Below, piece after piece: positions 3,577 to 23,180 of a stretch of DNA of 24,401 nt; the stretch's first letter is position 1, and each line of letters starts with the position of its first letter. The DNA lies in the IMG/VR virus record IMGVR_UViG_3300049489_000411, positions 1-24,401 of that record; one strand, given 5' to 3'. This DNA comes from a virus. The notes under the pieces were generated by a model that worked only from the letters and a program-made list of their open reading frames with translations, was not told the DNA's origin and made no database searches. Made by a program: the position numbers and the translations under genes.

Positions 3577-3966
3577 TTAGAGAGTAATGTCGTCGGCCGT
3601 CAGCGCCACTTCGGGCGCCGACTCCGCATGGCGCACCTTGGCGCCCGTATACTCGTCGTCAACTTCCAACTCGAAGTTATGTGCTTCTTTGCCCTTGAAC
3701 GCGCCCTTGGTCAGCATGTTCTTTCCGGCGTAGAAAACATTGCAGAGTGTAGCGCCGGGCGTGGCGTAGTTGTCGAGCTGCCAGTTGAGCTGGCCGGCCG
3801 AATTGAGTACGACAATCTCGCCGTTCTGCTGCTTAAAGACATGCTGCGTCCCGAACTTGCCCTCCTCGGGGCCGACGTAGACGCCCGCGTCGACGAGCTT
3901 CTGCCCTGGCTTGCACTCGTTGTACTTATAGTAGCGCCTCGCTCCGGACACTTTCTTAAACGCCAT
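3577..3966 (-). CDS. hypothetical replication-associated protein, possibly ssDNA-binding, 129 aa
   Basis: An ATG at 3966 follows AGGAGG at a good distance. The product begins MAFKKVSGARRYYKYNECKP and contains GVYVGPEEGKFGTQHVF, EIVVLNSAGQLNWQLDNY and a moderately acidic tail. Alternating short beta strands and its place between DNA polymerase and nuclease genes fit a small OB-fold-like DNA-binding protein. I cannot prove that: no named motif is present, and the tail lacks the usual acidic tip ending in Phe. An alternative is a polymerase or nuclease accessory subunit. It is one of the few genes in the block with its own strong ribosome site and no overlap, suggesting it is made in larger amounts. 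Confidence 0.75.
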   Translation of the reverse strand: MAFKKVSGARRYYKYNECKPGQKLVDAGVYVGPEEGKFGTQHVFKQQNGEIVVLNSAGQLNWQLDNYATPGATLCNVFYAGKNMLTKGAFKGKEAHNFELEVDDEYTGAKVRHAESAPEVALTADDITL

Positions 3967-3993: not shown

Positions 3994-5952
3994 TTAGATA
4001 AATTGGCGGTAGCGGGCGAGATCGGCCGCGCCTTTTTCGTCGACGTATTCCGTCATGATCTTTACCCCGTCGAGCAGGGCGGCGCCAGCGATTTTGCCGT
4101 ACTCGGGCGACCAGATATCGCCGTCGACGCGGATCATCGGAAACTCGCCGTAGTCTTTCGCGTAGAAGCCGAACGCCTCTTGCATGAGCGTTCTCAGAGT
4201 CGCCGCGTACCTGAAATCCCGGCACGGTATCTCGGCGACGATTGAATCATGCAGCGTATAGATAACGTCGAGGCCGGCGTCTTGCGCGATCGCGACGGCT
4301 TTGCGCATGACGACGGCGCCGAATCCCTGCACCGGGAAATTGCCGACTGACCTAATGTTGTCGTTATCGCCGTACATGCGCCAGCCGTCCGGTAGGCGCA
4401 GCTCGTCCTCAGTCTCGTACTCGGAGATCGTCGCCGACTTCCACTCCGCGTAGTCCGGGTACGTGTCATAGAACGTATCGATCAACTTTTGCGCCTCGGC
4501 CTCGTCGATCTTGAGGCGCGGCGCTAGGCCTTTGGCCGTCATGTCGTAGCTGATTCCTAGTACCAAGCCCTTACACTTGTCGCGTATGGCCTTGTGACTC
4601 TCTTTCGTCGCGTCGGCTGGCGCGAGTTTAGCTGCCTTGGCGAAGGCGAGATAGACGTCGCCAGATCGGTAGGCGTCCATCATCGCCGCGTCCTGCGACA
4701 AGACGGCGGCGATCAGGAACTCCTGGCTGGCGTAGTCCATACTGACGATCGCCCGGCCTTTCGGCGGCTTGATGAAAACTCTCATCCAATGCGACTTTAG
4801 CGGGATGAACCCCGCCGCTCCAGGCTGGCTGCGGCTTGACTGGCTGCCGTAGATGCCGAAGTACGGCCTAACGCGCCCATCGCTTCCGAGGTAGTCGTCG
4901 AATTTCTTTTTAGCGCCCGGCAGAAACCCGTTAAGCGACTGCTTAGCCTTGACGTAGCGGTAGTAGGCGCCGCCGAGGCCGGGCGAGGCGCCGTCGAACC
5001 AATCGCCGAACGCCTCTTTCGACAGAGACGGCCCGCGCTTTTCAGTCTGCCGCCAGTACGGCAGGCCTTGAGCGGCGATAAAGTCGCGCATAGCCTTTTC
5101 GTTAAGGCTGTAGCGCAGCTCCTTTTTGTTCCAACGAAACGGGCGCAGGTCGCTTGCGGCGTTGCACTCCTCGGCCGCTGATTTCAGTATCTCCCCGACG
5201 TTCGCTTTGAACCGCCCCAGACTCGGCACGTCGACCGGATAGCCGTGTCGGACCATGACGGCTGTTCGCCAGGCGTACTCGCCGCGCTGCAATGCCTCGG
5301 CAAGCCACTGCTCTTTGGGGTTAGAGCGCCGGACGTGCCGGGCGATCACGGCCTTTAGCAGCGCCGGTAGGTGCCTGACGTCCTCATCGCAGTAGGCCTG
5401 TATGCGGTCGGCCTCGGCATTTATCGCGTCAGAGTCGCCGGCAATGATTAGAGCTCTAACGGCCTCTTTCTCGGCCGTGTCGATCTTGACGCCGAGAAGT
5501 TTAAAGCAGGCAGCCGCGAGGTTGGCCGGCGCCTTTGAGTGGTCCTCGTCGTCGCCCTCGGCCCCGACGTCCCATTTAGACTTAGGCGGCGTCGTGCGTC
5601 GTACCTCGCCGCCGATTAGCTGGTCGCCGTAGGCCAAGGCGTGGTCGTGGTTGAGGAGCTGTCGGTACTCGAGATAGAGGTCAATAACAGGCATACGTTT
5701 AAAGGCGGGGTCGATCGTAAGGATCGACCGCGCCTCTGCCTCGGCGGCGTAGGCGACTAGCGTATAGCCGGCTTGGCTAATGTAGTTAAGGAACTCAAGA
5801 CAGTTCCGCCGTTGGCCGACGGTGCCGAGAAGCCAGAACCGGCGTTGCATAACCTCGACGCCGTCGACATAGCAGAGGGCCGACGCGCAGACGAGGTTGA
5901 GATCACGCTCAGTCGTCTTGTTGAACTCGAAATCGATAAAGCAAGGTTTCAT
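3994..5952 (-). CDS. polA: family A DNA polymerase (3'-5' exonuclease plus polymerase)
   Basis: This is a 652-aa replicative polymerase. The N-terminal DEDD exonuclease shows FIDFEF (Asp7, Glu9) and YCDEDVRHL (Tyr187, Asp191). The usual Exo II aspartate seems replaced: the matching segment reads AYAAEAEAR (68-75). Polymerase motif A is SMDYASQEF (Asp406, Glu411). Motif B on the O helix has Arg457, Lys461, Leu465 and Tyr469. Motif C is LHDS (His568, Asp569). Aligning R-x3-K-x3-x-x3-Y with E. coli Pol I puts Leu465 at position 762. There is no 5' nuclease domain, as in T7-like enzymes. The ATG at 5952 lies inside the preceding 70-aa ORF (44-nt overlap) and has no close ribosome site, so translation probably depends on that ORF being read. 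Confidence 0.97.
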   Translation of the reverse strand: MKPCFIDFEFNKTTERDLNLVCASALCYVDGVEVMQRRFWLLGTVGQRRNCLEFLNYISQAGYTLVAYAAEAEARSILTIDPAFKRMPVIDLYLEYRQLLNHDHALAYGDQLIGGEVRRTTPPKSKWDVGAEGDDEDHSKAPANLAAACFKLLGVKIDTAEKEAVRALIIAGDSDAINAEADRIQAYCDEDVRHLPALLKAVIARHVRRSNPKEQWLAEALQRGEYAWRTAVMVRHGYPVDVPSLGRFKANVGEILKSAAEECNAASDLRPFRWNKKELRYSLNEKAMRDFIAAQGLPYWRQTEKRGPSLSKEAFGDWFDGASPGLGGAYYRYVKAKQSLNGFLPGAKKKFDDYLGSDGRVRPYFGIYGSQSSRSQPGAAGFIPLKSHWMRVFIKPPKGRAIVSMDYASQEFLIAAVLSQDAAMMDAYRSGDVYLAFAKAAKLAPADATKESHKAIRDKCKGLVLGISYDMTAKGLAPRLKIDEAEAQKLIDTFYDTYPDYAEWKSATISEYETEDELRLPDGWRMYGDNDNIRSVGNFPVQGFGAVVMRKAVAIAQDAGLDVIYTLHDSIVAEIPCRDFRYAATLRTLMQEAFGFYAKDYGEFPMIRVDGDIWSPEYGKIAGAALLDGVKIMTEYVDEKGAADLARYRQFI

Positions 5953-6121: not shown

Positions 6122-6993
6122 TTCCCGTTCCAGTAGAGGCGCTCGACCGCTACACCAAGTGATTTTTGATCGGACAGAACTCGCTTATTTACTTTGTAGA
6201 CCTCGCGGAATCTTGCGTCCGGCAAGCTGTAATCTGAGATAAAGACAGGCGCGTCGATATTGGCTGCCCAATCGTAGAATTCGGCGTGGTTAAAAGGCGC
6301 CCCATAGCCCGCTGCCCCGCGATACGGCGGATCGCAATAGACCACTGAATTAGGCAGGATCGGAACGCATCGGTAGTCCCTTGCCGTAAGTTGTAGCTGC
6401 TGTAGCTGCTGTAGCTGCTGTAGCTGCTGTAGCCGCTCTAGCTGCTCTAGCTGCTGTAGCTGCTTTAGCCGCGCTACGTCGCCATATTTACGCTTCACCG
6501 CCCGTCGAAGGTACAGCCTACGCTGCGTCACTGTCGCCATGCTCTTTGGCCAACTGCTGACACCCAATATACTTGACGCCGTCTCGTCGAAAACTCCGAA
6601 TACCACGGCCATATGCAGCGACTTTTTGTTCGCCTCTATATCCGCACCAAATAGGTATGTTTTTTGGCCGTTCCCGAACGACCAGATAACGGCAGTGTAG
6701 GCGCAGGATCCCTTCCGGGCGTGGAATTCCTCTCTTGAAACCCACGGCGGCAAGAATCTGTCGTAGCTGAATTCGCCAGCTATCGCCTGTTTTATGAGGT
6801 CGACGACGCCAGGCTTGATTTCGTTGTAGTGAAAATTTTTGTACCTATCGGCCTTTCGAAGTAGCAAGTAGTGCGTCATTGCAAACCCGCCGCCGAACAG
6901 GTCGTAGAAATTGTCCGCTGCTGGGAGGTTCATAGCGATGGACGCCGCAATGCCGCTTTTTGATCCACGGTAAGGAATGCCGTACTCGCTCAT
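6118..6993 (-). CDS. D12-class DNA adenine methyltransferase with Leu-Gln repeat insert
   Basis: The protein is 291 aa from an ATG overlapping the upstream stop (ATGA). Motif X appears as YRGSKSGIA (8-16), motif I as FYDLFGGGFAM (29-39) and catalytic motif IV as VVYCDPPYRG (217-226). Between the substrate-recognition region and motif IV lies a stretch (about 176-201) of nine Leu-x-x triplets such as LQQ, LEQ and LER. The first ~170 residues and last ~90 look like a normal enzyme, so the insert is probably a surface loop or helix. The role is adenine-N6 methylation of phage DNA, probably to evade host restriction. It is only distantly similar to the other methyltransferase of this operon, so the two may modify different sites. 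Confidence 0.92.
   Translation of the reverse strand: MSEYGIPYRGSKSGIAASIAMNLPAADNFYDLFGGGFAMTHYLLLRKADRYKNFHYNEIKPGVVDLIKQAIAGEFSYDRFLPPWVSREEFHARKGSCAYTAVIWSFGNGQKTYLFGADIEANKKSLHMAVVFGVFDETASSILGVSSWPKSMATVTQRRLYLRRAVKRKYGDVARLKQLQQLEQLERLQQLQQLQQLQQLQLTARDYRCVPILPNSVVYCDPPYRGAAGYGAPFNHAEFYDWAANIDAPVFISDYSLPDARFREVYKVNKRVLSDQKSLGVAVERLYWNGK
6392..6472 (-). repeat. 9-bp tandem repeat inside the methyltransferase gene
   Basis: Nine consecutive 9-bp units with plus-strand consensus TGTAGCTGC fill 81 bp exactly. Units 1-4 and 8 are identical; the others differ at one or two positions. Each unit encodes a Leu-x-x triplet (LQQ, LEQ, LER, LKQ). The period keeps the frame, so slippage would change loop length without breaking the enzyme. 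Confidence 0.95.
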
Positions 6994-7500: not shown

Positions 7501-8949
7501 CTACTCTCCGTCGCCATTGGGGTGGGCATAAATCTGGCTTTCCGCGACCCAATTACTTCCGATCGCCGCAGGGTCTAGCTTGGCGATCGTCACGCCGAAA
7601 TGCGCGGCGTAGTCCTTAATGAGTCCCTCGATTTCTTTCGAGCTGTAGCCAAACCTTCGCCCGCGCCGAACCTCTTTCGCCGTCACCGTCTTCTGTCGGC
7701 GGCAGACTTGAATGAACTCCTGAAACTGCGCTGGGTAACTGGCGATACAAATCTGCTCAAAGAGCCTCGTTTTTGGGAAAGTCTCCGAAGAACCAGCCGG
7801 GAACGCGTGCCATAGGTACCCGGCAACATGCCGCAAGAAATCGCGGTCGGCAGCCAGCTTCACCAGGCGCTTGATCTTACGGGCACCTAGTGTCTCCTGG
7901 AGCTGCGTTTCGGCGACCTCGGGGACGAAAAACTTGCGGTCGCTATATTCGAGATAGCAACGGTGCGGGTGATTGTTGGCGACGACGATCGACGCATGAA
8001 TATCCTCCTCAATCTCGACCTCGACATTCTTCCGCTCAAATGTCCCCCTGGCGTTGTGGTACTGCTTTAACGCCTCCCTCAGCGCACCGCATAGCGGCAT
8101 CTCATCGAAGAATGCCAGCCTGCGTCGCGCAATTGACGCCTGGAAGCCTGTCTTAGCAAACCCACGCTGGGCAGTGATCGAGTTGTCCGCGCCCACTAAT
8201 GGCTTCGCTAGGCACTCTACGAACATATTTTTACCCGTACCGGGTGTCCCGGTCAGGAGTAGGACGCTACCCGCCCTTGTAAACGTGGCGTCTCGCAGCC
8301 AGGCGGCGGCGTGCTGCCGCGACTCGTCCGTTGTGAATAGACCGGCCATGAATTCGGCAAACTCGGTAGGCGGGTCTATCGGCGCAGGCGGCGGCTCCCA
8401 GCCGATCGCCCATGGCGCTGGCGACCAAAGGTTAAAGCCGGGTATGTCGTCTGGGTGTTCGACGATCCGCCCTTGGTTAGGCGCGTACTCGAACACGCAA
8501 TGCTTTTGGTTAGTATTGAGCCACTGCGCCAGCCCCTCCCCGCCGATAAGGGCGCGTACCCGGTCTATCGCGACCTCGTAGCTGATAGGGAATACCTTGT
8601 CTTTCCTCGCGTGGTAGAGGCGCGATTTCTTTTTGTCGGCGACGAAAAGAATCAGCGTCAGCTCAGACAGCGGGATAGGCACCTCAGCCGAGAACGGGCT
8701 GCCCATATCGCCGCTAAACTCCGGGCTATCAATCCCGCGTAGGGTGTCGACGAGGTCCTTCTCCGCTGTCGGACTCGCCGCCAACTTCATGAGCGACGGC
8801 ACTAAATCTGGCGCGTCCGGCAGGCGGCAGGCCTCGGCGATTACGTCACCGACTGAAACCCTGCGACCAGACATTTTCAAAGTGTTGCGGTTTGTGGCGG
8901 AAACGCCGAGGCGGGCTGAGAGAACACGCGCAATATCAGCGAGCTGCAT
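7501..8949 (-). CDS. SF3/AAA-type replicative helicase (D5/DUF5906-like)
   Basis: The start is taken as the ATG at 8949, which has GAGG five bases upstream; a GTG at 8985 without a ribosome site would add 12 residues. The 482-aa protein has a C-terminal helicase core: Walker A TGTPGTGKN (233-241), Walker B RLAFFDEMP (277-285), sensor asparagines in VVANNHPH (322-329) and YSDRKFFV (335-342) with a likely arginine finger. This set matches the SF3-like helicases fused to or partnered with phage primases. The N-terminal ~190 residues show no archaeo-eukaryotic or TOPRIM primase motifs that I can identify, so priming may come from elsewhere or from a diverged domain. It is the first gene of the minus-strand operon, next to the candidate origin. 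Confidence 0.9.
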   Translation of the reverse strand: MQLADIARVLSARLGVSATNRNTLKMSGRRVSVGDVIAEACRLPDAPDLVPSLMKLAASPTAEKDLVDTLRGIDSPEFSGDMGSPFSAEVPIPLSELTLILFVADKKKSRLYHARKDKVFPISYEVAIDRVRALIGGEGLAQWLNTNQKHCVFEYAPNQGRIVEHPDDIPGFNLWSPAPWAIGWEPPPAPIDPPTEFAEFMAGLFTTDESRQHAAAWLRDATFTRAGSVLLLTGTPGTGKNMFVECLAKPLVGADNSITAQRGFAKTGFQASIARRRLAFFDEMPLCGALREALKQYHNARGTFERKNVEVEIEEDIHASIVVANNHPHRCYLEYSDRKFFVPEVAETQLQETLGARKIKRLVKLAADRDFLRHVAGYLWHAFPAGSSETFPKTRLFEQICIASYPAQFQEFIQVCRRQKTVTAKEVRRGRRFGYSSKEIEGLIKDYAAHFGVTIAKLDPAAIGSNWVAESQIYAHPNGDGE

Positions 8950-9002
8950 AGGGGCCTCAATAAATTTCGGACGGGCAAGAGGCACGCTAACAAAAAAATT
9001 TT

Positions 9003-9036
9003 CGGGCTGGAAGCGATTTTATCGACTTCCAGCCCG
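9003..9036 (-). promoter_or_regulatory. strong hairpin in the leader of the replication operon, attenuator-like
   Basis: CGGGCTGGAAG (9003-9013) pairs perfectly with CTTCCAGCCCG (9026-9036), and the loop adds a CGAT/ATCG stem, giving about 15 bp with one bulged base. Read on the minus strand, it is followed by AAAA and then seven T, roughly 45 bp before the helicase start. It resembles an intrinsic terminator inside the leader, although the four A's weaken it. It may act as an attenuator, an mRNA stabiliser or an origin structure. Confidence 0.6.
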
Positions 9037-9135
9037 TGCCCGAACGAAACCTACTAGAGGTCGCTCTAGGGACTAGATACCTCAAACCGAACTCGGTGTC
9101 AAATGAGACTGAATCTGGGTGTATAAAAAATAGGC

Positions 9136-9223
9136 AAATGTTGTACACCCTCACTACGTATATATATATTTAATTTAATATTAAAATACATATACGTATA
9201 CGATGTAGGGGTGTACAACATTT
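9136..9223. repeat. 15-bp inverted repeat flanking an AT-rich core
   Basis: AAATGTTGTACACCC at 9136-9150 is repeated exactly in inverted orientation at 9209-9223. The 58 bp between are almost all A and T (runs of TATATA, TTTAATTTAATATTAAAA). Each arm holds TTGTAC reading inward, about 17 bp from a TATATA-like sequence, so both arms could be weak face-to-face promoters. An origin with an AT-rich unwinding element flanked by initiator or helicase binding sites fits equally well. Confidence 0.7.
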
Positions 9224-9252
9224 CTGAAAAAAAAAGTCAATGATTCCAACTG

Positions 9253-9280
9253 TACATTTTGGCCAACCGGCCGAAATGTA
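9253..9280. repeat. 12-bp hairpin with 4-nt loop
   Basis: TACATTTTGGCC (9253-9264) pairs with GGCCGAAATGTA (9269-9280), with one T-G mismatch that would be a wobble pair in RNA. No T-run follows on either strand, so it is not a typical terminator. A protein-binding site or origin hairpin is possible. Confidence 0.6.
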
Positions 9281-9340
9281 TTATTCGATTCGTCCTAGCC
9301 GCTCCTGGGCTATGTACATTGCCCACTTTTTGAGCATGGA

Positions 9341-9372
9341 AAAAAAGCCCACCGAAGGGCGGGCGGTGGTGA
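9341..9372 (-). terminator. rho-independent terminator of the 9392-9763 gene
   Basis: On the minus strand CCACCG pairs with CGGTGG around a short loop (or, as an alternative fold, GCCC with GGGC), and after two bases runs into seven T's. It lies 20 bp beyond the stop codon of the minus-strand gene at 9392, in the right orientation. It separates that gene from the replication operon, which must then start from its own promoter. Confidence 0.8.
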
Positions 9373-9391
9373 GGCGCTATCGGCGCGTCGG

Positions 9392-9763
9392 TCAGACTGG
9401 CGTCAACAGGCCGACGGCCTCGAGGCGTTGGCGCTCCTCGTCGTAGGCGATCTTGTTATTGAAGGCCTCGCTGGGGCGCAGTCGGATGCGGTCGCGGCAG
9501 TGGTCCAGGAATTTTCCGGCCTCGCGTTGGCTGTCGCGGAGGGTAAAGTCGGCTTCGCCGAGGCTCGGGAGGTCTTCGTCGTCAACGCCGCTGGCGATGA
9601 GAGACAGGCGGTAGACGGCGGCGTCATCGAGCGTCAGGCGCAGCTCGGTGAAGGCCTCGGCCTGCGCCATGACAGCGCCCCTGGCGACGAATGAACAGCA
9701 ATCCTCGTAGTTTGAGGATTGTTTGCCGCCGAATTTGGCAATCATATCGTTACGGGATTTCAT
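9392..9763 (-). CDS. hypothetical protein, 123 aa, single-gene transcript
   Basis: The start is the ATG at 9763, with CCGGAGG seven bases upstream; the frame stays open to 9850 but that extension would cover the divergent promoter region and the resolvase start. The product begins MKSRNDMIAKFGGKQ, has two adjacent cysteines (NYEDCCSFVARG), a segment LRLTLDDAAVYRLSLIA and a charged helical C-terminus rich in Arg and Glu. I do not recognise it. It sits alone between its own terminator and an operator-like palindrome, facing away from the late genes. That layout suits a regulator or an independently expressed accessory gene, but no helix-turn-helix is obvious. Confidence 0.8.
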   Translation of the reverse strand: MKSRNDMIAKFGGKQSSNYEDCCSFVARGAVMAQAEAFTELRLTLDDAAVYRLSLIASGVDDEDLPSLGEADFTLRDSQREAGKFLDHCRDRIRLRPSEAFNNKIAYDEERQRLEAVGLLTPV

Positions 9764-9849: not shown

Positions 9850-10344
9850 ATGGTATTAGACACTTATATAGGCATAGACCCCGGCCAACGCGGTGGCGTT
9901 GCGGTCGTCGGCGACCGCGTATCTCTCGCCGTGCCCATGCCGGACCCGCTGGCGTACCTCGACCTCCTGAGGCGATTCGACCCGGGGCGGTCTATCGTAA
10001 TGATCGAGCGGGCCCAGGCGATGCCGGGTCAAGGCGTCGTCAGCATGTTTGGGTACGGCAAGCACGCCGGGTTTCTCGAGGGCGCGGCGCTGGCTCTCGG
10101 CTATCGCGTAGAACTAGTGCGCCCACAGGCATGGCAGGCCGTCATGTACGAAGGCGTGCGGGGCCTTGACGGTAAAGAGCGGTCGATCGCTGCCGTTCGA
10201 CGCCTTTACCCCGAGATCAACCTGACGCCCGGCAGGCTGAGAAAACCGCATGACGGCATCGCCGACGCCGTGCTACTAGCGGCCTATGCGAGAAACCTAC
10301 GTAGCAGCGGCAGAGAAATTAGGCGCCAAAGTGTGGCCGACTAA
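9850..10344 (+). CDS. RuvC-like Holliday junction resolvase
   Basis: The protein is 164 aa with the RNase H fold signature of RuvC: YIGIDPGQRGGVAVV with Asp10, VMIERAQAM with Glu53, and a C-terminal RKPHDGIADAVLLAAYA with Asp135 and Asp139. These are the acidic residues expected to bind the metal ions. It would resolve branched DNA before packaging, consistent with its place just ahead of the terminase genes and as first gene of the late block. No clear ribosome site precedes the ATG at 9850, so the start is less certain than the family. The last 59 bases overlap the next ORF. Confidence 0.92.
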   Translation: MVLDTYIGIDPGQRGGVAVVGDRVSLAVPMPDPLAYLDLLRRFDPGRSIVMIERAQAMPGQGVVSMFGYGKHAGFLEGAALALGYRVELVRPQAWQAVMYEGVRGLDGKERSIAAVRRLYPEINLTPGRLRKPHDGIADAVLLAAYARNLRSSGREIRRQSVAD

Positions 10345-11158: not shown

Positions 11159-12524
11159 GCCGTCAACGCCGACGCTTTGCGGCTTCGCCCCGGTCATTCC
11201 ATATCAGCGCGAGGTACTAGACCTCGTCCGCGACGACTTCGATTATTCAGTCGGCAACCTCGAAATCCTTTTATCCGGCGCCTACGGCTCGGCGAAGTCG
11301 GTGCTACTCGCGCACCTGGCGGTGACGCACTGCATTCTGTACCCAGGCGCCCGCGTTTGTGTCGCCCGAAAGGCGCTACCGGATCTTAGGCGGACGATAT
11401 TTGCGGAAATCATCGAGCACCTAGACGACCTCGAGGAGGGAGCTGATTACGAAGTCAACCGGACGCAGCTCTCTATCAAGTTCAGTAACGGCTCAGAGAT
11501 CATCTCGATATCGTGGTCAGACCGGAAGTACAAAAAGGCGCGGTCGCTCAAGTTGTCTATGGTCGTCATAGAGGAACTGACCGAATCGGACGAGCAGGAT
11601 AAGCAGGCTTTTACCGAGCTAAAGGCGCGGCTGCGACGCATACCCGGCATACCTGAGAACCTGCTTATCTGCGCGACTAACCCCGACTCGCCAGCGCATT
11701 GGGCCTACACCTACTTTATCGAGCCGAATACCGGTGCTGCCCACCCGACGCGCAAGGTATTCTACTCGCGCACGGCAGATAACCCGTTCTTAGACCCGAG
11801 CTATATACGGCAGCTTCGACAGGACATGAATAGCCGCGAGGTCGAGCGGTACGTCGAAGGTCGCTGGGTCGAGTTGACTAAGGACGTTATCTACTGGGCT
11901 TATTCGACGGACAACTACCGCGAAGCCGAGTACCGGGTTAACGAGGCGTACCCGATCGGCCTCAGTTGGGACTTCAATATCGGACACGGCAAACCGCTAT
12001 CTTGCTGCGCCTTTCAGTTTATCGACGACACTTTTCATTTCTTCGCCGAGTCGGTAGTCGAAGGCGCGAGGACGGAGGATAGCGTGCGCGAGCTGGCCGA
12101 GCGAGGCGTGCTCGACTTCAATACGGAATATGTCGTCTACGGTGACGCCAGCGGCCGTGCGCGGGACACTCGTAGTCGGACGACGGACTACGATATAATC
12201 ATGGAGGCGCTCGCCGCGCATATCGGCCCTTACGGCCAGGTCAGGGCGCGGAAAATGGTGCCGCTCTCAAACCCGCCGGTACGGACCCGGCATAACCGCG
12301 TTAACGCCTACTGCTGCAACGCCGACGAGGCGCGGCGCCTTTACGTCTACAAGGCCTGTCCGACGCTGCACAAGGGCATGAGGCTTGTCGCGCTTAAGCA
12401 GGGCGGGCAATATGTGGAAGACGACAGCAAAGACTATCAGCATATTTGCTGTGCAATTGGGTATGGCATCGTAAGCACTTTAACTTACGCAACCCGCAAA
12501 AATCAGGGCTCGATACCATTATGA
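11112..12524 (+). CDS. terL: terminase large subunit (packaging ATPase and nuclease)
   Basis: The protein is 470 aa. ATPase motifs: Walker A SGAYGSAKS (55-63), Walker B MVVIEEL (150-156) and coupling motif LLICATNP (184-191). The nuclease domain contains LSWDFNIG (Asp287), VYGDASGRARD (Asp345) and a C-terminal DDSKDYQHICCAIGYG with the third acidic residue. The Walker A box has Ala instead of Gly before Lys, as in several phage terminases. The chosen ATG has GGAG ten bases upstream; an ATG at 11130 is the alternative. It pumps DNA into the procapsid and cuts it. The stop overlaps the start of an inserted endonuclease gene. Confidence 0.96.
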   Translation: MTHRLAMKLATETLARPSTPTLCGFAPVIPYQREVLDLVRDDFDYSVGNLEILLSGAYGSAKSVLLAHLAVTHCILYPGARVCVARKALPDLRRTIFAEIIEHLDDLEEGADYEVNRTQLSIKFSNGSEIISISWSDRKYKKARSLKLSMVVIEELTESDEQDKQAFTELKARLRRIPGIPENLLICATNPDSPAHWAYTYFIEPNTGAAHPTRKVFYSRTADNPFLDPSYIRQLRQDMNSREVERYVEGRWVELTKDVIYWAYSTDNYREAEYRVNEAYPIGLSWDFNIGHGKPLSCCAFQFIDDTFHFFAESVVEGARTEDSVRELAERGVLDFNTEYVVYGDASGRARDTRSRTTDYDIIMEALAAHIGPYGQVRARKMVPLSNPPVRTRHNRVNAYCCNADEARRLYVYKACPTLHKGMRLVALKQGGQYVEDDSKDYQHICCAIGYGIVSTLTYATRKNQGSIPL

Positions 12525-13051
12525 CGTTTAGGCCAATACCGGGTTTCATCGGCTATGAGATAGACGAAAGCGGCTCCATTATTGGTAGGCGCGGGGTTCG
12601 CATAAAAGATTACGAGCACTCAGGCGGGTATCGCATCGTGCACTTACGCTCTTGTGGCGAGCGCCGAGCGCGGTACGTACACCGATTAGTGCTCGAGGCG
12701 TTCTGCGGGCCGTCGAATGGGCGCGTAGCTAACCACAAGAATTTGAGCCGCTCGGATAACCGCCTTAGTAACCTAGAGTGGGTCACGCAGCTAGATAATG
12801 TCAGACACGCCAGCGCAAGAGGTGCTATGCCATCGCACTACATTTCTGCTAGACGCGGTGAAGACATTTTTCGATTGTTTGAGTTGGGGCATACGACGCG
12901 GAGCATCGCGGCGCACTTCGCCTGCGACCCAACCGTTATTACTAATTTTCTACGTAAACGCGGTGTCACTAATTTGCGTTCTTTGGCAGGCCTTAAGTCC
13001 TCCGTGGCTCGCACTCGCAATGCCCTCGGGCAATGGACGGTGGAACTATGA
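12521..13051 (+). CDS. HNH homing endonuclease (NUMOD4 plus HNH)
   Basis: ATG at 12521 overlaps the terminase stop (ATGA), giving 176 aa. It begins MTFRPIPGFIGYEIDESGSI, a NUMOD4-type DNA-binding segment, followed by VHRLVLEAFCGP and ANHKNLSRSDNRLSNLEWVT (the HNH metal-binding His and Asn residues, about 67-90). The C-terminal part (DIFRLFELGHTTRSIAAHFACDPTVITNFLRKRG) is a helix-turn-helix. Such free-standing genes are selfish elements, or help the phage win mixed infections. It is inserted between terL and portal with a 4-nt overlap at both ends, so it shares their transcript without breaking either gene. Confidence 0.92.
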   Translation: MTFRPIPGFIGYEIDESGSIIGRRGVRIKDYEHSGGYRIVHLRSCGERRARYVHRLVLEAFCGPSNGRVANHKNLSRSDNRLSNLEWVTQLDNVRHASARGAMPSHYISARRGEDIFRLFELGHTTRSIAAHFACDPTVITNFLRKRGVTNLRSLAGLKSSVARTRNALGQWTVEL

Positions 13052-21662: not shown

Positions 21663-23180
21663 ATGACCGCAATCGCTACACGCTCGTCGGTGCTCGCCGT
21701 CACGGTCGAATCGACCGAAGGAACGCCGGTTGTACCGACGCTGGCGTCTCAGTTCATCGCCATGCAAGACGACGCCGACTTCTCGTCGGAGTTCGAGCAG
21801 CTCGAAAACGCCGAACTTAAAAACAGTCTCGGGCCGGCCAAGACGATTACCGGATCAGAGAATCCGGCCGCATCGTTCAGCCACTACCTGCGACACAGCG
21901 GCGTCGAGGGCACGGCGCCTAACTACCGCCAACTGCTTAAGACGGCGTTCGGCTCTGAAGAGGTCGAGTCGACGGAGTACAACACCGTCGCCGCGTCTAC
22001 GACCTCGGTTATCAAGGTCGACGTCGGCGAAGGCGCGACGTTCAGCCGAGGCCAGGCGCTTCTCATCAAGGACGGGACGAACGGCTACAGCATCCGCCCC
22101 GTTCACTCGATCGCTACCGACGACCTGACGATCGGCTTTAACCTCGGCACGGCGCCGGGGACTGGCGTCAATCTCGGCAAGGCCGTCACCTACTCGCCGG
22201 CCAATAGCGGACACCAAAGCCTCTCGCTATGGCACTACGTCGGAAACGGCGGGGCGCTTGAGGCCGTAGCCGGCGCCCGCGTTTCAGAGCTCAATATCGA
22301 CTTCGAGGCTGGCCAGCTTATCAACGCCAGCTATTCGCTGGAAGGCATCGGCTACTACTTCAACCCGATCAACATCACGGCTACCGACACCAAACTAGAC
22401 TTCACCGACGACGACGGCACCTTTGCCGCGACGGTCACGGCCAAGGTCTACAAGGATCCGCACGACTTGGCGACGGCTCTCACGACGGCCATGAATACGG
22501 CCAACCCAGGCGAGACGCATACCGTTACGTACTCGAACACGACCGGCAAGTTCACTATCCTTTGCACCGGCACCGTCCTTTCGCTTCTCTGGAACACGGG
22601 CGCCAACACCGCAAACACGATTGGCGACAAGATCGGCTTCCTTACCGCAGCCGACGACACCGGCACGGCCGCCACGACGGGCTATACGTCTGATAACGCC
22701 GTGTCGTTCGCCGCGCCCGTCACGCCGACCTACGACAGCGCCGACCCGCTTGCCGCGAAAGACCATAGCGTCCTTATCGGCGACTCGACCGATAACGTCT
22801 GCTTCAACCCGTCGAGCGTCTCTTTCAGCCTGTCGGATACCGTCCGGCCGATCGAGTCGATTTGCGCCGAGAGCGGCAAAAGCGGCACGATCATTAACGC
22901 CCGCGAGGTGACGGTGACGGTGACGGCGCTGCTGAATCAGTACGACGCCGACAAGTTCCGCCGCCTTAGGACCAACGCCGATACGCGCTTCATGTACGCC
23001 TTCGGCACCAAGTCGGGCGGCAACTGGGTGGCCGGCAAGTGCGGCTGCCTTTACGTCCCGACTTGCACCGTCGCGGCGTTCGACGTGAGCGACGACGACG
23101 GCCTGGCGTCTGTCGAGCTGGAACTCAAAGCCTACGTCGACTCGTCGGGTAACGGCGAAGTCTATCTCAGTTTCGTCTAA
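21663..23180 (+). CDS. major tail tube protein with inserted beta domain
   Basis: ATG at 21663, preceded by AAGGGG. The protein is 505 aa. The N-terminal ~235 residues and C-terminal ~150 residues form the tube domain (IATRSSVLAVTVESTEGTPVVPT at the start; SVSFSLSDTVRPIESICAESGKSG and SVELELKAYVDSSGNGEVYLSFV at the end). Between them (about 238-347) lies an extra domain (FAATVTAKVYKDPHDLATALTTAMN, HTVTYSNTTGKFTILCTGTVLSLLWN, IGFLTAADDTG). Similar TGKFTI...LLW...GF..ADDTG segments occur in many phage tail and fibre proteins, as I recall. The protein stacks as rings in the tail tube; the insert would face outwards. No sheath gene is adjacent. Confidence 0.88.
   Translation: MTAIATRSSVLAVTVESTEGTPVVPTLASQFIAMQDDADFSSEFEQLENAELKNSLGPAKTITGSENPAASFSHYLRHSGVEGTAPNYRQLLKTAFGSEEVESTEYNTVAASTTSVIKVDVGEGATFSRGQALLIKDGTNGYSIRPVHSIATDDLTIGFNLGTAPGTGVNLGKAVTYSPANSGHQSLSLWHYVGNGGALEAVAGARVSELNIDFEAGQLINASYSLEGIGYYFNPINITATDTKLDFTDDDGTFAATVTAKVYKDPHDLATALTTAMNTANPGETHTVTYSNTTGKFTILCTGTVLSLLWNTGANTANTIGDKIGFLTAADDTGTAATTGYTSDNAVSFAAPVTPTYDSADPLAAKDHSVLIGDSTDNVCFNPSSVSFSLSDTVRPIESICAESGKSGTIINAREVTVTVTALLNQYDADKFRRLRTNADTRFMYAFGTKSGGNWVAGKCGCLYVPTCTVAAFDVSDDDGLASVELELKAYVDSSGNGEVYLSFV

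Follow-up and report, generated by a model that had tools for sequence, protein, structure and literature searches.

Phage P4 has a helicase-driven origin, ori1/crr, in which two cis sites lie a few kb apart, and its alpha protein, a primase-helicase fusion, binds short iterons. SaPI origins have an AT-rich centre. To our knowledge, apart from those of satellites such as P4 and the SaPIs, few origins of phages have been linked to D5/SF3 helicases. The origins of SaPIs mirror that of SV40, two hexamers being loaded head to head by oppositely oriented repeats (PMC9894130), and the site of action of both the SaPI Rep and the Cch2 proteins adjoins the gene that encodes them (PMC7581432). SCCmec elements possess a primase-less combination of an A-family polymerase and a D5-type helicase, the polymerase priming with an OB-fold partner (PMC7581432, PMC10061031).

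The present analysis concerns the intergenic region 8953-9391 of a viral stretch of 24,401 nucleotides (IMG/VR record IMGVR_UViG_3300049489_000411, hereafter the window), located between the start of a leftward helicase gene (8952) and the end of another leftward gene (9392-9763). The features of this region and of the helicase module are as follows:

3994-5952, minus strand: A-family DNA polymerase of the helicase's module (PF00476, phrog_17)
7501-8952, minus strand: predicted SF3 (D5-type) helicase, candidate initiator (DUF5906 and fold match)
9003-9036, minus strand: GC-rich hairpin with 11-bp perfect arms, then AAAATTTTTTT (A and T runs), terminator- or attenuator-like
9074-9102, minus strand: weak candidate helicase promoter, TTGACA-17 bp-TATCTA (direct reading)
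9117-9126, plus strand: degenerate third copy of the arm core, GGGTGTATAA
9136-9150, plus strand: left arm of the inverted repeat, AAATGTTGTACACCC, exact 15-bp complement of 9209-9223
9209-9223, minus strand: right arm of the inverted repeat, GGGTGTACAACATTT, perfect over 15 bp
9151-9208, unstranded: AT-rich core, candidate unwinding element (58 bp, 81% A+T)
9136-9223, unstranded: whole 88-bp imperfect palindrome, 82% complementary, possible hairpin or cruciform
9142-9147, unstranded: TGTACA box 1, inside the left arm
9212-9217, unstranded: TGTACA box 2, inside the right arm
9251-9256, unstranded: TGTACA box 3, foot of the second hairpin
9253-9280, unstranded: second hairpin, TACATTTTGGCC/GGCCGAAATGTA (RNA fold of 9236-9300, z -5.3)
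9313-9318, unstranded: TGTACA box 4, centre of the 18-bp near-palindrome GGGCTATGTACATTGCCC (direct reading)
9347-9364, minus strand: intrinsic terminator of gene 9392-9763, at the upstream edge of the region

The palindromic AT-rich element is real and non-random. The 15-bp inverted repeat on which the original prediction was built is exact, and its symmetry runs on through the interior between the arms. This palindrome is the strongest inverted repeat of the window, with a score of 20, whereas neither the 300 dinucleotide shuffles made of the region nor the rest of the window exceed 12, and folds as single-stranded DNA with a z of -7.1. The enclosed DNA, which had been described as about 58 bp of nearly pure A+T, does have that length but not that purity, since pure A+T is restricted to 30 bp (9159-9188), which nevertheless form the longest such run of the window. 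The GC-rich surroundings (58.8% GC in the window) and the location beside the helicase gene had been correctly recognised: the palindrome lies upstream of the start codon, at a distance of 184 bp. Furthermore, the 100 bp from 9159 to 9258 show the lowest nearest-neighbour stability of the window (z ~6, compared to ~3.4 for the runner-up site). A search of Rfam gave no match. A palindrome whose centre melts easily, placed just ahead of the helicase gene, together with a matching layout in the closest relatives, leads us to read this island as the replication origin of a phage with a module made of a primase-free D5/SF3 helicase and an A-family polymerase, with a probability of about one in two.

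The comparison with the described systems reveals likenesses as well as differences. Like SaPI origins (SaPI5 primase-helicase, PriRep1), the site adjoins a helicase gene, the encoded helicase has a related fold (Z 18), and the repeats are in opposite orientation (PMC9894130, PMC7581432). An AT-rich element between the repeats is a further common feature. However, the SaPI origin is downstream of rep and consists of arrays of short iterons, whereas the site of the window is upstream of the helicase gene and has one pair of long arms. Moreover, the SaPI5 Rep has a primase domain that the helicase of the window does not have. The putative origin of SCCmec Cch2 is likewise an intergenic site with inverted repeats (PMC7581432), but Cch2 needs the direct repeat AAGTG. 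As in the core origins of SV40 and papillomaviruses, opposed sites in the window surround a candidate melting region and the helicase is of the SF3 superfamily, with a fold match to E1; in contrast to these initiators, which have an N-terminal origin-binding domain, its N-terminal 70 residues have no assignment. The window also differs from P4 in having neither an iteron array nor a primase-helicase fusion initiator.

The assignment of the protein encoded by 7501-8952 to the SF3 helicases, already made in the original prediction, is supported by its DUF5906 match (31.7 bits, just over the cut-off), by a fold search and by its SF3 AAA+ motifs, GTPGTGKN, FFDE, VVANN and DRKF (the set of Walker A, Walker B, motif C and arginine finger). 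Across 10 helicase homologues, K241, E284 and R339 are invariant and N327 is nearly so. A structure model made from the single sequence was useless (pLDDT 42) and was replaced by an AlphaFold2 model based on a 10-sequence alignment (pLDDT 75). This model matches the CTR of NrS-1 PrimPol (Z 22.2), the SaPI5 primase-helicase (Z 18.1), poxvirus D5 (Z 15.9) and, with Z of about 12, papillomavirus E1 and AAV Rep, the whole-chain rmsd of these matches being high (5-9 A). Because of these fold matches, the protein is predicted to be a D5-type SF3 helicase that carries no primase domain.

The rest of the module encodes a ParB-like protein, a methyltransferase, the A-family polymerase, a PD-(D/E)XK nuclease and an SNF2-type helicase. 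A D5-type helicase without a primase domain beside an A-family polymerase is also the arrangement of SCCmec Cch2/CCPol-MP (PMC7581432); CCPol, however, has a partner OB-fold protein, and none was identified in the window. A search for AEP (PF09250), DnaG zinc-ribbon (PF01807) and Toprim_2 (PF13155) domains in the window and in the contigs of eight relatives (L005, L009, L011, L017, L018, L019, L022 and L024) gave no match, the controls being positive; several of these contigs are ~40 kb long and of uncertified completeness, with an end repeat in that of L022 only. All nine phages possess the genes for the helicase and the A-family polymerase. In the window (3577-3966, minus strand, 129 aa) and in L017, L018, L008, L011, L014 and L021, the polymerase gene is followed by a small ORF (98-166 aa). 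No SSB or other family was recognised in it; by comparison with PolA-SSB pairs, it is possible that it encodes a partner of the polymerase.

Several other features of the window were noted. A RuvC-like resolvase is encoded near the palindrome (9850-10344). An ORF for a probable HNH-type homing endonuclease (12446-13051) overlaps the end of the large terminase gene, and its homologue in L007 adjoins the polymerase. A D12-type adenine methyltransferase contains 9-bp coding repeats (LQQ/LEQ run, 6383-6481). In a second, Dam-like methyltransferase (596-1312), similarity ends after ~65-80 residues, suggesting a possibly frameshifted or decayed gene. Finally, 12-bp coding repeats (Ala/Trp-rich, AWAA-type) occupy the contig edge (1-203).

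The original prediction proposed to look for a minimum of cumulative GC skew at the island. A local minimum does occur at 8878, although the overall minimum, defined for this fragment only, is at 23009. The turn at 8878 falls where leftward genes give way to rightward ones. Both gene groups show a negative coding-strand skew at third codon positions; since its sign is the same on both sides, the turn reflects gene orientation and coding rather than a separate signal of replication. The skew minimum of the L022 contig lies 8.4 kb from the helicase start. As cumulative GC skew follows gene orientation and gives mixed results in relatives, it was dropped as an origin test.

Besides the palindrome, the intergenic region contains signals that could act in transcription. 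All four TGTACA of the window, which the original prediction does not list, fall within 9142-9318. Shuffling the region gives 0.07 on average, and not one of 5000 shuffles has four. The chance of the same clustering for any non-AT palindromic hexamer is ~0.0005, this evidence being somewhat less independent than it seems since two of the four boxes are tied by the inverted repeat. No iteron array or direct-repeat family was found in the region, which has only these four palindromic boxes. The hairpin 9003-9036 sits in the presumed leader of the helicase (RNA fold of 8990-9060, z -3.7). Since the upstream gene has its own good terminator (9347-9364), the helicase operon needs a promoter in the region. 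The candidate at 9074-9102 matches the -10 hexamer at 3/6 positions and is under the threshold of the promoter scanner.

These signals suggest the main alternative to an origin, namely that the island is a transcription control element: the TGTACA boxes would be operators for a dimeric regulator of the phage or of its host, the helicase (early) operon would draw its -10 hexamers or an UP-like element from the AT core, and the hairpin 9003-9036 would be a leader attenuator. TGTACA is itself palindromic and restricted to this region, a promoter-like TGTACA-17-TATATT lies inside the palindrome, an attenuator-like hairpin is present downstream of it and the helicase needs a promoter in the region. 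However, the promoter matches are weak and some are directed away from the helicase, TGTACA is missing from the other promoter regions of the window and no repressor gene was recognised in the fragment. We regard this element as a possible but somewhat doubtful explanation of the island. The "control centre" part of the original prediction is thus possible, since promoter-like hexamers, an attenuator-like hairpin and operator-like TGTACA are all present. Furthermore, because origins and early promoters often overlap, an origin and an early promoter/operator may coincide in the island.

No close relative of the helicase was found in the viral and genome contigs, phages and plasmids searched; the island itself had no match among phages and the palindrome, used as a DNA pattern, none in viral contigs. 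The terminase, tried as another route to relatives, retrieved only L004, in which the structural module is shared but such a helicase is missing. A search with an alignment of the A-family polymerase retrieved viral contigs encoding polymerases 35-49% identical, and in most of these contigs a helicase profile found a homologue located upstream of the polymerase. A fixed layout was then searched for in ten relatives (an inverted repeat spanning 60-120 bp, with an A+T fraction at least 0.08 above that of the locus). For four loci, the best site is upstream of the helicase: the window (184 bp), its two closest relatives L017 (290 bp) and L018 (141 bp), and L022 (105 bp), whose layout is weak. It is not upstream of the helicase in L024, L011, L008, L019, L014 and L005, and the weak 66-bp site located 90 bp upstream of the helicase in L009 is not the best of its locus. 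AT-rich tracts precede the L011 helicase gene and its counterpart in L008, with folds not clearly better than those of shuffles. Since the window was already known and the loci had been looked at once when the criterion was set, these figures, including the p near 0.001 obtained by simple arithmetic for three of 10 relatives with a best site at most 300 bp upstream if position were uniform, are guides and not strict tests. As intergenic DNA is richer in such structures, the ranking was repeated among the non-coding gaps of each contig only: the helicase-upstream site comes first in the window, L017 and L018, whereas two other gaps beat or tie it in L022. In the full L022 contig, it ties with two other sites, one of them slightly better.

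A motif common to the arms of these phages was sought and not found, the arms of L018 being unlike those of the window and L017. The conservation that the original prediction set as a check is seen for the architecture (in L017, L018 and weakly in L022) but neither for the arm sequences nor for distant relatives. In the nearest relatives, conservation thus appears to be at the level of layout, not of sequence. Such kept geometry with changed letters would be expected of a recognition site that co-evolves with an initiator diverging fast; a regulator would fit as well.

In the 39.3-kb contig of L018, three sites score at least as high as the element upstream of its helicase: this element itself (1745-1833), an 87-bp element (38252-38338) and a hairpin beside the latter. 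The two elements (87-89 bp) are copies of each other (blastn E 1e-10) that align in their outer arms (TTTTTTGCTA, ACTTTAT) and in their AT-rich centre, with a local score of 43 compared to a maximum of 29 in 2000 shuffles and of 19 in 1926 other windows. The second copy lies in a divergent region, between the leftward small terminase gene (terS) and a rightward gene, near the GC-skew minimum of the contig (38688). If the contig ends are assumed to be joined, the copies are ~2.7 kb apart; two sites a few kb apart recall ori1/crr of P4. A strong hairpin stands beside each element of this contig (L026 18467-18527; L018 1667-1718), like that at 9253-9280 in the window. Both copies precede rightward genes, one of them in the divergent region beside terS, and copy 1 contains TTGCTA-17-TATAAT, which again favours transcription control; the 87-89-bp span with its conserved 40-58-bp AT centre is, however, long for a single operator.

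The two copies of L018, the length of the palindrome and the nearby RuvC-like resolvase would also suit a structural palindrome with another role, such as a recombination hot spot, a hairpin telomere site or a miniature inverted-repeat element. Inspection nevertheless showed no flanking direct repeats at any copy, and no protelomerase or transposase was recognised among the scanned proteins. Each phage has an element of its own sequence at the same place. Finally, the centre of the palindrome is imperfect, in contrast to telomere resolution sites. Such a role is therefore highly improbable.

The elements of the relatives also bear on the possibility that the origin is opened by the host DnaA and not by the phage helicase, which would be loaded afterwards. 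In the window, TTATACACC (9118, on the strand opposite to GGGTGTATAA) differs from the DnaA box at one position and both TTGTACACC differ from it at two. L022 carries an exact TTATCCACA at a distance of 11 bp from its inverted repeat, and the core of L017 contains two boxes with one mismatch each. However, there is no exact DnaA box in the whole window and no box up to one mismatch at either L018 copy, and two-mismatch matches are common. Opening by DnaA thus seems quite unlikely. A role of DnaA as an accessory is a possibility for the elements of the window, L017 and L022, near which DnaA-like boxes are found, but not for those of L018.

If the island is a replication origin, the helicase or a partner protein would recognise the two arms facing each other, and perhaps also the extra TGTACA boxes. 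Two hexamers would assemble on the arms, oppositely oriented, and open the ~58-bp AT core that separates them, after which the helicases would depart both ways together with the polymerase. We infer this sequence of initiator binding, melting and bidirectional start at the palindrome from the anatomy of the site, the helicase family and the published SaPI, SCCmec and SV40 origins (PMC9894130, PMC7581432).

In favour of the origin are the following points: (i) no other inverted repeat of the window is as strong and no other DNA as unstable as that just upstream of the helicase, (ii) the layout recurs with a different sequence in the two closest relatives, with a second copy in L018, (iii) the predicted fold group of the helicase includes well-studied initiators acting at sites that they recognise, and (iv) published SaPI and Cch2 helicases work next to their own gene (PMC7581432), SaPI origins having opposed repeats (PMC9894130). 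Against it stand the lack of an iteron array, of a shared arm sequence and of the layout in distant relatives, the GC skew, which gives no independent support, and the location of both L018 copies in regions that could be early promoters.

A broader proposal is that these phages have a distinct replication module, in which two rings of a primase-free D5/SF3 helicase would load in opposed orientation onto a single AT-cored palindrome of 75-90 bp, present once or twice per genome, and the first primers would come from the adjacent A-family polymerase or from hairpin- or RNA-primed synthesis at the palindrome, the binding letters varying by phage while the geometry is kept. We consider this proposal speculative and rather unlikely in its complete form. 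Overall, the recurring palindrome in front of the helicase provides a short and directly testable candidate origin in a group of uncultured phages, and the fact that no primase was detected in the nine phages scanned makes the priming of their first strand a concrete question.
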